Assembly (NCBI GenBank): GCA_030532905.1
Contig: JAUNKE010000017.1
Coordinates: 1 to 38,337, forward strand
Reading direction: 5' to 3'
From: Peptostreptococcaceae bacterium
Lineage (GTDB): Bacteria; Bacillota; Clostridia; Peptostreptococcales; Filifactoraceae
DNA: 38,337 nucleotides
Shown here: positions 33,004 to 38,337 of the stretch, in pieces
Layout of the letters: each line of letters starts with the position of its first letter
Position numbering within the stretch: position 1 is the first letter of the stretch
Notes under the pieces: model-generated
The model's database searches: none
What the model was told of the DNA's origin: nothing
Seen by the model: only the letters and a program-made list of their open reading frames with translations
Translations under genes and position numbers: made by a program

Positions 33004-33216
33004 CAAAGCAATGAAAAGGAATAGTAGTCAAATTATATTTTTCAGAGAGTATCTGGTTGGTGCAAAGATATACTTATATTTGTCGAACTCGCCTTGGAGC
33101 TATGGATGCAAAACATTTATCGGGTGACTCCGTTATCGGTCTTTGAGTGGGTGCATTGCACCAAATAAAGTGGTACCGCGAACTTCGTCTTTATATTGAG
33201 ATGAAGTTTTTTTGTT
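33004..33216 (+). promoter_or_regulatory. T-box leader controlling leuS (specifier CUC, Leu)
   Basis: tRNA-sensing riboswitch. Stem I contains AGAGAGTATCTGGTTGG at the apical side. The specifier is CTC at 33088-33090 in GAACTCGCC, the leucine codon expected for leuS. The T-box proper AAAGTGGTACCGCG (33167-33180) carries the bases that pair with the uncharged tRNA acceptor end. The terminator AACTTCGTCT/AGATGAAGTT plus T-run (33181-33216) is the alternative fold. Uncharged tRNA-Leu is expected to stabilise the antiterminator and switch leuS on. Confidence 0.92.
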
Positions 33217-33229
33217 TGAGGAGGAATTT

Positions 33230-35638
33230 ATGAACTACAATCCAAATTTGATTGAAAAAAAATGGCAAAAAATTTGGGAAGACAACAAAACGTTCGAGGC
33301 GATAACCGGCTCCGAAAAACCTAAATTTTTTGCATTGGTCGAGTTTCCGTATCCATCGGGAGCCGGACTTCATGTCGGGCATATTCGTGCCTACTCATCC
33401 CTTGAAGTAATTTCAAGAAAACGCAGATTACAAGGCTACAATGTACTCTTTCCGATTGGATGGGATGCATTCGGATTGCCGACTGAAAACTACGCAATGC
33501 AAACGGGACAGCATCCACGCAAGGTGACCGATGATAATATAAAAATATTCTCCAGCCAGCTCAAAGCGACCGGATTTTCTTTTGACTGGAGCAGAGAAAT
33601 CGATACGACCGATGAAAACTTTTACAAATGGACGCAGTGGATTTTTCTACAATTATTCAAAAACGGCTTGGCATTCAAAAACAAAACCTTCGTCAACTTC
33701 TGCGAGCATGACAAAGTGGTTCTCGCCAACGAAGAATCGCAAAACGGAATCTGCGATCGATGCGGAAATGAAGTTATTCAGCTTGAAAAAGATGTATGGT
33801 TTCTCAAAATTCGCGACTACGCCGACAAATTGCTTGACGAATTGCCATTCCTTGACTTCTTGCCGCGCATAAAAACCGAGCAGGAAAATTGGATAGGTCG
33901 CTCCTACGGTGCGGAAATCCATTTTGAAGTCAAAGACAGCGATCGGAAAATCAATGTCTTTACGACCAGACCGGATACTTTGTACGGAACGACCTTTATG
34001 GTTATCGCTCCGGAGCATCCAATCTTGGAAGAAATGGCATCGCGCATCAATAATATGGATGCGATTGCCGAGTACCAAGCACTTGCGAAAAGAAAAACCG
34101 AATTCGACCGCGTGCAGATGGCGAAAGATAAAACCGGCGTATGCATCGACGGACTCAGCGTCATCAATCCCGTTACGAAAAAAGAAATGCCGATTTGGGT
34201 TGCCGACTATGTCATGATGGGATACGGTACCGGTGCGGTAATGGGCGTTCCGGGACATGACGGCAGAGACTGGGAATTCGCCAAAAAATTCAACTTGCCG
34301 ATTGTCGAAGTAATTGCCGGCGGAAATATTGAAGAAGGCGCATTCGACGACATCGAAAACGGCACCATCATCAATTCCGAAATCATCAACGGAATGAAAC
34401 CTCGTGAAGCGATGGAAAAAATGATTACCTATGCCGAGGAGCAAGGCTTCGGAAAAAGAAAAGTCAACTACAAAATGAAAGATTGGGCATTCAATCGTCA
34501 GCGCTATTGGGGAGAACCGATTCCAATCATCCATTGTGAGCATTGTGGAATGGTTCCCGTTCCGGAAGAAGAATTGCCGGTAAAACTTCCCGTCGTCGAT
34601 AACTATCATCCGACCGACACCGGCGAGTCACCGCTCGCCAACATACCGGACTGGGTGAATGTAAAATGTCCGAAATGCGGACAAGACGCCAAAAGAGAAA
34701 CCGACACCATGCCGCAATGGGCAGGCTCCTCTTGGTACTTCCTACGCTACATGGATCCGCGCAATACGGAAAAACTTGCGTCCGATGAAAGTTTGAACTA
34801 CTGGGGAATGGTCGATTGGTACAACGGCGGGATGGAGCATGTCACTCGTCACTTGATTTACTCAAGATTTTGGCATCGATTCCTATACGACATCGGCGTC
34901 GTACCGTTCAAAGAGCCTTACGCAAAACGAACCGCACAGGGACTTATTCTCGGTGGAGACGGCGAAAAAATGTCCAAGTCACGCGGCAATGTCATCAATC
35001 CGAACGAAATTATCGAATCCTATGGCGCCGACACGCTTCGAACCTATATGATGTTCATCGGAGAATACGAAAAAGCAGCCGTATGGTCCGACGCGAGCCT
35101 TCGAGGCTGCAAGCGATTCCTGGATAGAGTTTGGAAATTGCAGGAAATTGTAACCGACGAAAATAAATACTCCGACAAACATACCTCATTGATGCACAAG
35201 ACGATTAAAAAAGTGAGTTTGGATATTGAAGCGATGAAATTCAACACCGCCATCGCCGCACTCATGTCGGCAATCAACGAATTCTACGACGACGGATTCG
35301 TGACCAAGGCGGAGCTTCAAACATTCATTACCCTACTTTATCCGATTGCGCCGCATATCACCGAAGAAATTTGGCAGTTACAAAACTTCGGCGGCATGCT
35401 CAACCAAAGCGATTGGCCACAGTGGGATGAAGAAAAAACCATCGACGATGTCATCGAAATTCCAATTCAAATCAACGGGAAAATGCGAGGAAAAATTTTG
35501 GTACCGAAAGATGCCGATGTCAATCTTGCCAAAGAAGAAATGAAAAAAGACGACAAAATCAATCAATTCTTGGAAGGCAAGACGATTGTAAAAGAAATCT
35601 TCGTACCGGGAAAAATCTTCAATATCGTCGTAAAATAA
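33230..35638 (+). CDS. leuS: Leucyl-tRNA synthetase
   Basis: Class I synthetase, 802 aa. HIGH-type motif HVGH at 48-51 (PSGAGLHVGHIRAYS). The CP1 editing domain (about 220-415) contains TTRPDTLYG-type sequence and GTGAVMGVPGHDGRD. The KMSKS loop is EKMSKSRGN at about 577-585. A zinc-type CxxC lies in CPKCG. GAGGAGG is 6 nt before the ATG at 33230. It is monocistronic, controlled by the T-box, and closed by a strong terminator. The only long plus-strand gene in the core. Confidence 0.97.
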   Translation: MNYNPNLIEKKWQKIWEDNKTFEAITGSEKPKFFALVEFPYPSGAGLHVGHIRAYSSLEVISRKRRLQGYNVLFPIGWDAFGLPTENYAMQTGQHPRKVTDDNIKIFSSQLKATGFSFDWSREIDTTDENFYKWTQWIFLQLFKNGLAFKNKTFVNFCEHDKVVLANEESQNGICDRCGNEVIQLEKDVWFLKIRDYADKLLDELPFLDFLPRIKTEQENWIGRSYGAEIHFEVKDSDRKINVFTTRPDTLYGTTFMVIAPEHPILEEMASRINNMDAIAEYQALAKRKTEFDRVQMAKDKTGVCIDGLSVINPVTKKEMPIWVADYVMMGYGTGAVMGVPGHDGRDWEFAKKFNLPIVEVIAGGNIEEGAFDDIENGTIINSEIINGMKPREAMEKMITYAEEQGFGKRKVNYKMKDWAFNRQRYWGEPIPIIHCEHCGMVPVPEEELPVKLPVVDNYHPTDTGESPLANIPDWVNVKCPKCGQDAKRETDTMPQWAGSSWYFLRYMDPRNTEKLASDESLNYWGMVDWYNGGMEHVTRHLIYSRFWHRFLYDIGVVPFKEPYAKRTAQGLILGGDGEKMSKSRGNVINPNEIIESYGADTLRTYMMFIGEYEKAAVWSDASLRGCKRFLDRVWKLQEIVTDENKYSDKHTSLMHKTIKKVSLDIEAMKFNTAIAALMSAINEFYDDGFVTKAELQTFITLLYPIAPHITEEIWQLQNFGGMLNQSDWPQWDEEKTIDDVIEIPIQINGKMRGKILVPKDADVNLAKEEMKKDDKINQFLEGKTIVKEIFVPGKIFNIVVK

Positions 35639-35652
35639 AAAGAACAAAATTC

Positions 35653-35688
35653 AAAAAGGTTGCGGGAATCTCCCCCAACCTTTTTTTA
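35653..35688 (+). terminator. Terminator of leuS
   Basis: AAAAAGGTTG-C-GGG (35653-35666) pairs with CCC-C-CAACCTTTTT (35672-35685), followed by T. Strong hairpin with U-tract. Confidence 0.85.
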
Positions 35689-35702
35689 TAAATATAATCA
35701 AA

Positions 35703-35837
35703 TCATTTACAGGCTTCAATATGCAGTTTTCGGATGCCTTCTTCGACAACTTCGAGCACATCTTCTTCCTTATAATACACATTCGGGTATTTTTTATGAT
35801 CTTCTTCAAATGGAGAAAACCGTTTTGTTATCTCCAT
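35703..35837 (-). CDS. Possible small protein (44 aa)
   Basis: An open frame MEITKRFSPFEEDHKKYPNV continuing to ...IRKLHIEACK. The composition (acidic, amphipathic helix VLEVVEEGIRKL) looks protein-like. GAGGAAAGG lies about 18 nt upstream of the ATG, which is too far for a normal ribosome site. It could equally be the tail of a decayed gene. Unknown function. Confidence 0.35.
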   Translation of the reverse strand: MEITKRFSPFEEDHKKYPNVYYKEEDVLEVVEEGIRKLHIEACK

Positions 35838-35930
35838 AATTTTTTTGAAACAAAACCTTTCCTCTATAAATTTCTCAGTTGATTAGAATATGCGGGTATT
35901 TTTCTTCGCAGATTTTCACTGAACCCTGTT

Positions 35931-36443
35931 TTAAGAGATCCAATTTCTTAATGACTTCGGTTTGTAATCTCCAAACAAAACATCCAGCAAGTCAATATGA
36001 TTCTCCGGTGGATTGAAGCGTGCATGGACGACATATCCATATTGTCTATCAATTGGTGCGATGATTTCCCAGTCTTCCATTACAATTTTGTAATCTATTG
36101 GACATTCTTCGGCATCAAATTGCTTATCAGTATATTTTTCAATCGACTTTGCTTTTAGCAAAAATGCATTTCTCACGGCATAAAGAAAAGAGATGCTCAA
36201 CTCCTCTTCAAGAGAAGGTTCTATAATGACACTCTTCCCTTTTAACTCACCATCTGTTATTACATAATAACTCAACTGCATACAACCGCGATCAAACACT
36301 ATATAATAATTGTCGTTGTTCTCTATCATTCGTTTTGCTTCTTTGTATGAAATCGCGTGCTTTACCGGTAAAAGCATCAAAAATCGAAACAATATTATTA
36401 GAAGTGTAATACCTGCAATGACATATATTTTTTTCTTTTTCAT
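35931..36443 (-). CDS. Hypothetical single-pass membrane protein, paralogue A
   Basis: A 170-aa protein of no recognised family. A lysine-rich start MKKKKIYVIA leads into one transmembrane helix (about 6-26). The remaining domain should lie outside, with two cysteines, C54 (DRGCMQ) and C114 (EECPIDY). It aligns with the gene at 36561-37046 over GELKGK, CPxxY, W-x-I and FGDYKP/HGDYIP; both cysteines are shared, suggesting a disulfide. AGAGGAGGAAAA precedes the ATG at 36443. Just after the stop an overlapping frame (TEVIKKLDLLKQG...) continues to about 35875 and may be the end of another decayed gene. Confidence 0.65.
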   Translation of the reverse strand: MKKKKIYVIAGITLLIILFRFLMLLPVKHAISYKEAKRMIENNDNYYIVFDRGCMQLSYYVITDGELKGKSVIIEPSLEEELSISFLYAVRNAFLLKAKSIEKYTDKQFDAEECPIDYKIVMEDWEIIAPIDRQYGYVVHARFNPPENHIDLLDVLFGDYKPKSLRNWIS

Positions 36444-36560
36444 TTTTCCTCCTCTTTCAGTAAAAATTGCCCCTGCTATTATCATGACTCAAAAAACTCC
36501 AAATTGCACTTTTTTCAGGTACCGAAGTTATTCACTCTCTTAAAATGAAGTGTTTTTGAA

Positions 36561-37046
36561 TTACGGAATATAATCTCCATGGTCTAAATCATATTGGTCA
36601 ATATAACTTTTTGGATAAAACCATCGCTCATGAGGAGTGTAAGTGTAGTCACGGAAAATCGGATATACGATTTTCCAATTCTTCACGGTAATTTCATAAC
36701 TGGCTGGACAAATGATTTCACTCGCACTCTCATAGATAGGACGGATTTCTTCCGCTTCGATTAAAAAGTTTGCGTTTCTAAAAAATATATTTTTTAAATT
36801 TCTATAAGGGGAATCATCCAAGTTGACATATTTCCCCTTGAATTCTCCGGAAGAAAAAACATATACAGTTCCTCCACTGCAACTTCTTGTCGATATTAGA
36901 TACCAATTATCCTCAAAAGTCAATTTACTTGCCACCTCAATCCATGATGCTGCATAAATAATCGGCTTGTAGCGATTACACAGTATCAAATATACGACCA
37001 GTAAAGCAACCATCACATATATTTTTTTCCTTTTCCCTTTTTTCAT
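36561..37046 (-). CDS. Hypothetical single-pass membrane protein, paralogue B
   Basis: A 161-aa protein, paralogue of the previous gene. MKKGKRKKIYVMVALL begins one membrane helix (about 9-23), followed by an external domain with C56 (RSCSGG) and C113 (ICPASY), GEFKGK and a C-terminal HGDYIP. GGAGGGGG lies 5 nt before the ATG at 37046. Gene spacing of 117 nt to paralogue A with no clear terminator suggests co-transcription. No lipobox, peptidase or binding motif is seen. An immunity or surface role is only a guess. Confidence 0.65.
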   Translation of the reverse strand: MKKGKRKKIYVMVALLVVYLILCNRYKPIIYAASWIEVASKLTFEDNWYLISTRSCSGGTVYVFSSGEFKGKYVNLDDSPYRNLKNIFFRNANFLIEAEEIRPIYESASEIICPASYEITVKNWKIVYPIFRDYTYTPHERWFYPKSYIDQYDLDHGDYIP

Positions 37047-37092
37047 ATCCCCCTCCATATTATTGTAGATAAAAAATTTGCCAAAGAACTTC

Positions 37093-37267
37093 TCAGGCAT
37101 TTGCCGAAAAATTTACGCCGGCTCTTAATTCTAAAACCATCCGAACATCCTCAATGAACAACATGTAGAAGTATCTTACTTCAATAGCTTCGATAGTTTC
37201 ATGGTCTTCGTTTCTTTCATAAATCCTTTATTCGTTTGTACTCTTTATCATATAATCCGAATTTCAT
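37093..37267 (-). pseudogene. Frameshifted small ORF
   Basis: ATG at 37267 reads MKFGLYDKEYKRIKDL then stops. One base further the frame continues ERNEDHETIEAIEVRYFYML to NFSANA and a stop at 37093. The segment is 175 nt, one base more than 58 codons. Both halves look like protein, so a single base gain probably broke a 57-aa gene. The ribosome site is weak. Family unknown. Confidence 0.35.
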
Positions 37268-37311
37268 CACCGGGAATTTTCACTTGCCGAGATTAAAATA
37301 GAATTCTCAGT

Positions 37312-37767
37312 TTAATAATAAACCATTCTTATCACACCAAAATCAATCTGAAAAGGATTCAAACTGATTTCTATCTCTTCTTCATGCTCAATACGAAGAA
37401 TATTTTTAGCAAATTGTTCCAGTAAACCCAGCTCGGTTTCAATGTAAAAACAACACCGATGCAATCTCTCGTTGTTATCATCTATCTCCATATCCAACTC
37501 AATCTTTAGACGACCGGTCTTGTGTGCCGGTAAGATTCTCATTGAAAATGTAGGAGGATAATTCCCTTTCAATTCGCCAAATATAAAAAACAACTCACGA
37601 TTATATGTTTTACAATATTCTTGAATCGCTTTGGATGTTTCAGTCAGTTCTTTATATGTCATATAACAATCCTGATAAACTTTTATATATTTAGATTGTC
37701 CTTTCACTCGTAACTCGCAATACTGTTCCTCCGCCTTCCATATTTTTGTAAAAGTAAGATTGTCCAT
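37312..37767 (-). CDS. Hypothetical soluble protein
   Basis: A 151-aa protein with no signal or membrane segment and no family I can name. MDNLTFTKIWKAEEQYCELR is followed by predicted alternating strands, FIFGELKGNYPPTF, and a helix GLLEQFAKNILRIEHE near the end. The phrase GELKG also occurs in the membrane paralogues, probably by chance. GGGAGG and GAAGG lie just before the ATG. Size and layout resemble immunity proteins of polymorphic toxin clusters, but no toxin gene is in the window. Confidence 0.6.
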   Translation of the reverse strand: MDNLTFTKIWKAEEQYCELRVKGQSKYIKVYQDCYMTYKELTETSKAIQEYCKTYNRELFFIFGELKGNYPPTFSMRILPAHKTGRLKIELDMEIDDNNERLHRCCFYIETELGLLEQFAKNILRIEHEEEIEISLNPFQIDFGVIRMVYY

Positions 37768-37819
37768 CCTTCTATTCCTCCCTGCGAATGCTGTCGTTTG
37801 TCCTTAATGCTTTCTTTTC

Positions 37820-37857
37820 GTAAAAAAACCATTTTTTCGATATGCAATTGATGGTTC
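37820..37857 (-). terminator. Terminator after the 37894-38301 gene
   Basis: Minus strand AACCAT (37856-37851) pairs with ATGGTT (37832-37827), followed by six more T. The stem is short, the T-tract good. Confidence 0.55.
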
Positions 37858-37893
37858 TTTTCCCTTTGCAATCATCTCAAAAGCAATCACCTG

Positions 37894-38301
37894 TTATTTA
37901 AGGTTTCGAATTGTGATTTTGGGTTCGGGAGTGCAGACAATATCCAAAGTATAATCACTGTCCACTATAACATAATGTCTTAACTTATCTTTCTCGTAAA
38001 TTCCAAGACACTTTTTTTCTAATTCTTCCAGATAATCCGAATCCTCAATGATGAAAAATCGATTATCCCACAGATAGCCCTTTCCATATTTGTCACGGAC
38101 TGCGTAAATTCGGTCTAAGAAGAAGTTTTCTTCCAGACATTGATAGACAAGCACCCCGTCTTCAAAGTATATTTCGACTTCTACATCATCTTCTACCTGT
38201 ATGATAATTTGAAATCCATCGGAATCATCTTTGATGGATGACATATAGGAATACCTACCTTGAAGTTCAATTATTTTCCATGGTATCCAGTTCTCTTTCA
38301 T
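37894..38301 (-). CDS. Hypothetical soluble acidic protein
   Basis: A 135-aa protein with no known motif. MKENWIPWKIIELQGRYSYM, then an acidic strand-rich centre (DGFQIIIQVEDDVEVEIYFE), a helix DYLEELEKKCLGIYEKD and a final strand. Probably cytosolic. GGAGGAAAT precedes the ATG at 38301. It is separated from 37312-37767 by a terminator. Like its neighbour it has the size of an immunity protein; function unknown. Confidence 0.6.
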   Translation of the reverse strand: MKENWIPWKIIELQGRYSYMSSIKDDSDGFQIIIQVEDDVEVEIYFEDGVLVYQCLEENFFLDRIYAVRDKYGKGYLWDNRFFIIEDSDYLEELEKKCLGIYEKDKLRHYVIVDSDYTLDIVCTPEPKITIRNLK

Positions 38302-38337
38302 ATTTCCTCCATTTATTTTGTTCTAATCCTCACTTCT

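Follow-up and report, generated by a model that had tools for sequence, protein, structure and literature searches.

Gene content of the island beside leuS

The window, meaning the whole 38,337-nucleotide stretch of DNA analyzed here, is the complete contig C91 of a Peptostreptococcaceae bacterium genome (G000) that comprises 2.48 Mb in 132 contigs. According to the open reading frame list, the minus-strand genes B, A, C, and D fill 35.7-38.3 kb, beyond leuS, and upstream of D the contig breaks off after 36 bp. Transcription runs in the order D, C, A, B, which places the soluble proteins C and D upstream of the A/B pair. The island and its left border contain the following features:

33212-35638, plus strand: leuS, a conserved neighbor
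35653-35686, strand not assigned: hairpin AAAAAGGTTG...CAACCTTTTT followed by a T run, read from the sequence; left island border and likely a terminator
35703-35837, minus strand: possible gene remnant between B and leuS, a 44 aa open reading frame
35931-36485, minus strand: B, a membrane-anchored paralogue of A; start supported by a ribosome binding site (RBS) at 36443
36561-37100, minus strand: A, a membrane-anchored paralogue; RBS-supported start at 37046
37093-37224, minus strand: 43 aa open frame located between C and A, with neither start nor RBS; possibly a gene remnant
37312-37767, minus strand: C, which encodes a soluble protein of 151 aa; probably an immunity gene of the array
37894-38301, minus strand: D, which encodes a soluble protein of 135 aa from a putative immunity family found next to Rhs toxins
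38302-38337, minus strand: RBS and leader of D, then the contig end; resembles the congener stretch that follows Imm197

An initial annotation of this DNA had described four unrecognized genes at its right end, to be reconsidered if any proved to match a known family. All four open reading frames are confirmed, and none of A, B, C, or D matches a Pfam, NCBIfam, or PADLOC family above the cut-off. Debris of small genes, also described there, is weakly supported in the window, where neither Pfam nor plasmids gave a match to the open stretches at 37093-37224 and 35703-35837, and is demonstrable at the equivalent place in the congener.

The GC content of the island is 34.4%, versus 41.3% for the remainder of the contig. 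In the congener G001, a metagenome-assembled genome (Peptostreptococcaceae bacterium isolate S17M_Sa_33, a name that reads as indicating a salivary origin), the next gene after leuS, 173 bp away, encodes pyruvate:ferredoxin oxidoreductase (PFOR) in convergent orientation, and nothing is inserted between the two. B-A-C-D therefore constitute extra DNA beside leuS in G000, and the ordinary metabolic surroundings that the initial annotation had named as evidence against its proposal were not what we found. The G000 PFOR gene resides on a separate contig, C31, where an ABC transporter follows it. This ABC exporter-like gene (L076, G000:C31:4568-6277) lies after PFOR at the position where the congener has leuS, and is cut by the contig end. 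The island was considered as an insertion between leuS and PFOR; the PFOR side yielded the ABC transporter but no link to the present contig. A search for the continuation of the contig end revealed no second full copy of the last 100 bases of the window in G000.

Giant Rhs genes in G000 and its congener

RHS repeats are present in G000 and G001 and in none of the nine other family members (G002-G010). Contig C55 of G000 encodes a secreted Rhs protein of at least 3069 aa (RHS_repeat E-value 4.9e-98, DUF6531) that runs off the contig end, and contig C48 of G001 encodes a giant Rhs protein of at least 3554 aa that likewise runs off its contig. The G000 assembly contains no Rhs core end, so that the toxin tip and whatever follows it are missing. 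The initial annotation had suggested that a toxin could lie beyond position 38337; a giant Rhs gene with an unassembled toxin end does exist in the genome, but C55 could not be joined to C91, as the two contigs share no overlap and both break off at contig ends. A location of the missing tip in the gap next to D is consistent with these observations.

In both genomes, a secreted protein of 280-310 aa is encoded 9 bp upstream of the giant Rhs gene (L100, G000:C55:9218-10144, minus strand; L101, G001:C48:2363-3214, plus strand). It contains one YD repeat, a Gly/Ser linker, and a C-terminal domain, and is possibly an Rhs partner or processing factor.

Gene D belongs to an Rhs-adjacent family

As first described, C and D are soluble proteins upstream of the membrane pair, and no hydrophobic segment is present in either. 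A tblastn search of plasmids with D recovered homologues in Enterococcus raffinosus, and these in turn led to Lactococcus raffinolactis. Pairwise comparison of D with the Enterococcus/Lactococcus family gives an E-value of 7e-12, and a hidden Markov model built exclusively from the Enterococcus and Lactococcus members recovers D of the window at 3.4e-10, compared with 0.074 for the top-scoring one among 1000 shuffled sequences.

In E. raffinosus ATCC 49464 (L121), the D homologue begins 12 nt past the stop codon of an Rhs protein of at least 2981 aa; in L. raffinolactis, it begins 2 nt past an Rhs/DUF6531 protein. The toxins of both species end in one common domain (...GKGKVGTL-DGR-VV-RPGS...PTLEIQ...KIRY) that is absent from Pfam. 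At this position a second strain, E. raffinosus Er676 (L122:7957-9345), carries a different Rhs C-terminus, followed by a decayed copy of the common toxin tail and then by a frameshifted D homologue. The pair is intact in ATCC 49464. We read the Er676 locus as an array in the process of forming.

The congener encodes a D orthologue on contig C111 with 60% identity, and this pair is saturated at synonymous sites (pS 0.83, pN 0.22). On sequence evidence, D belongs to an undescribed, putative Rhs-linked immunity family. Because its homologues lie directly behind Rhs toxins in two genera and because its orthologue occupies a place in the congener array described below, we read D as an antidote, and an immunity function is very probable. 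A weakly D-like protein with an EP.I end motif (HMM E-value 0.013) is encoded near the end of another contig (L032, G000:C117:343-837, minus strand); this match is only suggestive.

A dispersed Rhs immunity array in the congener and a remnant of gene C

Toxin ends and immunity genes of G001 are scattered over small contigs. On C107, an Rhs C-terminus is followed after 8 bp by an immunity gene, named Imm197 for this analysis, and then by an orphan Rhs core with a second C-terminus, which overlaps the gene for an STM3941-type membrane protein by 4 nt. Contig C114 carries a truncated Rhs tail, an Imm197 relative, and a further STM3941-type gene. The 84 nt upstream of the D orthologue on C111 are 97.6% identical to the 3' end of Imm197 and the C107 sequence that follows it; this match places D directly behind an Imm197 copy and attributes the contig break to the Imm197 repeat. 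A 66 nt open frame upstream of D on C111, considered as a toxin end, was dropped, since it is the Imm197 end read in a different frame. Over 495 nt, C111 and C107 share 93% identity in their STM3941-type genes, C111 also carries an Imm5_like (PF21805) immunity gene, and DUF4304 and DUF4279-like genes occur in the same contig set. A search of G000 found no Imm197. The congener array lies away from leuS, and hence the two loci are not positional orthologues.

Several further features of these arrays were observed. In another family of the order, an Imm197 relative is fused to an Rhs core tail in one open reading frame (L120, G260:C75, 9796-10728), with the toxin domain apparently deleted between them. 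STM3941/DUF6585-like membrane proteins are repeatedly encoded directly behind a hydrophobic, glycine-rich Rhs C-terminus, with a 4-nt overlap (L110, G001:C107:2006-3948; L031:1375-2432; L111:1553-2317), and are candidates for protecting against an Rhs toxin that acts on membranes. Part of the Rhs gene, 150-190 nt long, recurs beside array immunity genes with 76-89% identity (L111:1054-1242; L101:9832-10020; L100:2307-2462), and is possibly a recombination foothold.

Behind D on C111, an open reading frame starts with MDDLTFTKIWSA, matching the start of C, MDNLTFTKIWKA. The surviving piece of C comprises the first 12 codons (30 nt at 93% identity), after which the frame runs into a tail resembling the second Rhs C-terminus, followed by the STM3941-type gene. 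This tail aligns to the toxin tail with a score of 74, compared with 28 +/- 4.6 and a maximum of 52 for shuffled sequences. The frame is best read as a deletion fusion between a C orthologue and a toxin module. Apart from this remnant, no relative of C was found among the genomes of the order, GTDB contigs, viral contigs, phages, or plasmids. C is very likely an array gene, and an immunity function is probable given that the corresponding place in the congener holds its remnant, joined to a toxin tail.

A and B are diverged, membrane-anchored paralogues

The paralogy, topology, cysteines, and motifs originally described for A and B proved real. The two proteins share 36% identity (E-value 1.7e-23 in a whole-genome search), and their local alignment score of 233 stands far above shuffled sequences (mean 31.9, maximum 56), as does that of the outer domain alone (198 versus a shuffled maximum of 56). 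Each protein has a Lys-rich start, a single hydrophobic segment, and then an outer domain, which is predicted from charge to face outward. Common to both are the motifs GE(L/F)KGK, CPxxY, and GDY(K/I)P and the two outer-domain cysteines; A contains a third cysteine inside the helix. The starts accompanied by an RBS are internal ATG codons, at 37046 in A (GGAGGGGGATATG) and at 36443 in B (GGAGGAAAAATG).

Searches of 395 genomes from the order, of viral contigs, of phages, and of plasmids found no relative of A or B. GTDB contigs likewise gave no match, with poor scan patterns; the automatic peptide patterns used in some of the scans for A, B, and C are mostly N-terminal, which makes those particular negatives weak. 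AlphaFold models of A and D have mean pLDDT values of 50 and 56, and the corresponding Foldseek lists are meaningless and provide no fold match. As A and B have no relative anywhere searched, their assigned role rests on position and form. On linkage, duplication, and topology, they are best read as membrane-anchored, outward-facing immunity proteins, an assignment that we consider rather more probable than its opposite. A and B might further be the founding representatives of an immunity family, membrane-anchored and disulfide-containing, that halts an Rhs toxin on the outside of a Gram-positive membrane and so resembles TipC in its solution without being related to it; we put this forward tentatively, as somewhat short of an even chance.

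Alternatively, C and D could be Rhs immunity genes, with A and B as small membrane proteins that have nothing to do with them and share the same variable island by chance. The array contigs of G001 contain no copy of A or B, and relatives of the pair were found neither in an Rhs array nor elsewhere. However, A and B agree with C and D in strand, low GC content, and compact spacing; they have duplicated and diverged, as array immunity genes often do; and an outer domain on one membrane anchor is an established architecture of immunity proteins, exemplified by TipC. We regard a chance association as unlikely.

The island as the distal part of an Rhs immunity array

Taken together, these results support the reading of B-A-C-D as the distal part of an Rhs (WapA-like) polymorphic-toxin immunity array inserted next to leuS, with a probability of roughly 0.76. 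The original proposal, of immunity genes arrayed at the border of a polymorphic toxin locus, thereby gains support from the D family, the congener array, and the giant Rhs gene.

Three other explanations concern the island as a whole. First, its genes could confer self-protection within a bacteriocin or modified-peptide locus situated between leuS and PFOR, as the ABC transporter behind PFOR at the end of C31 might suggest. Yet neither a precursor peptide nor a maturation gene was seen, the D family is associated with Rhs toxins across three genera, and C31 could not be linked to C91; we consider such a locus quite improbable. Second, the low GC content, the orphan genes, and the insertion site beside leuS would also suit a decayed prophage, or cargo of a mobile element, unconnected with any toxin. 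This explanation is a little less credible again, since the open reading frame list contains no phage gene within the island, A/B, C, and D have no viral or phage match, and D homologues lie behind Rhs toxins elsewhere. Third, and least credible, is a type VII (LXG) toxin immunity array of the TipC kind, which the tandem arrangement and TipC-like plan of A and B (one anchor and an outer domain) would fit but against which stand the lack of a TipC NCBIfam match, the presence of Rhs instead, and the absence of LXG (PF04740) above the cut-off in G000 and its ten relatives (G001-G010), with a positive control genome; of the toxin types named in the initial annotation, Rhs is thus present and LXG, when searched for, absent.

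Under the preferred reading of B-A-C-D as an Rhs immunity array, a giant secreted Rhs protein would carry a variable C-terminal toxin into neighboring cells of related strains, and the gene behind the toxin would make the matching antidote. A new toxin/antidote module would displace the old one and shift the old antidote gene downstream, where it would be retained, as the old toxin may still be present in kin. D would be such a displaced and retained, putative antidote. The outer domain of A and B, perhaps held by a disulfide, may stop a toxin on the outside of the membrane, and their duplication and divergence may widen the range of toxin variants neutralized.

Comparison with known systems

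Both orphan Rhs modules and the retention of immunity genes have been well documented (PMC3150448, PMC5361080, PMC12704120). The Gram-positive Rhs/WapA orphan arrays, such as Streptococcus suis wapA (PMC12704120), share with the system seen in the congener a giant secreted Rhs protein, a variable toxin tip, an immunity gene directly behind it, and truncated Rhs copies with older pairs displaced downstream. They differ in their immunity families, and in the window the immunity part alone is assembled. TipC, which confers immunity to TelC (PMC6193138, PMC9484751), resembles A and B in its N-terminal anchor, outer domain, length of about 200 aa, and tandem paralogues. The likeness is one of plan alone, however, for no sequence similarity was detected, searches of A and B yielded neither an NCBIfam match to TipC nor a solved-structure match, and the genome contains Rhs without LXG. 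The type VI orphan immunity arrays of Vibrio cholerae (PMC5361080) similarly retain immunity genes after effector replacement, but employ another delivery system and unrelated proteins. Within the congener, the STM3941 (NF041635) and Imm5_like (PF21805) genes share a contig with the D orthologue but are not homologous to A, B, C, or D.

The finding is a fresh instance with unnamed immunity families rather than a novel type of system. It adds a Peptostreptococcaceae-like lineage to those with an Rhs toxin and orphan-immunity system, names a partner type for the unannotated D family across three genera of two orders, and yields two further candidate immunity families that are testable. It also illustrates how arrays form: in the congener, an immunity gene has been truncated and joined to a toxin tail; in E. 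raffinosus, a D homologue is intact behind its toxin in one strain and broken behind a decayed tail in the other.
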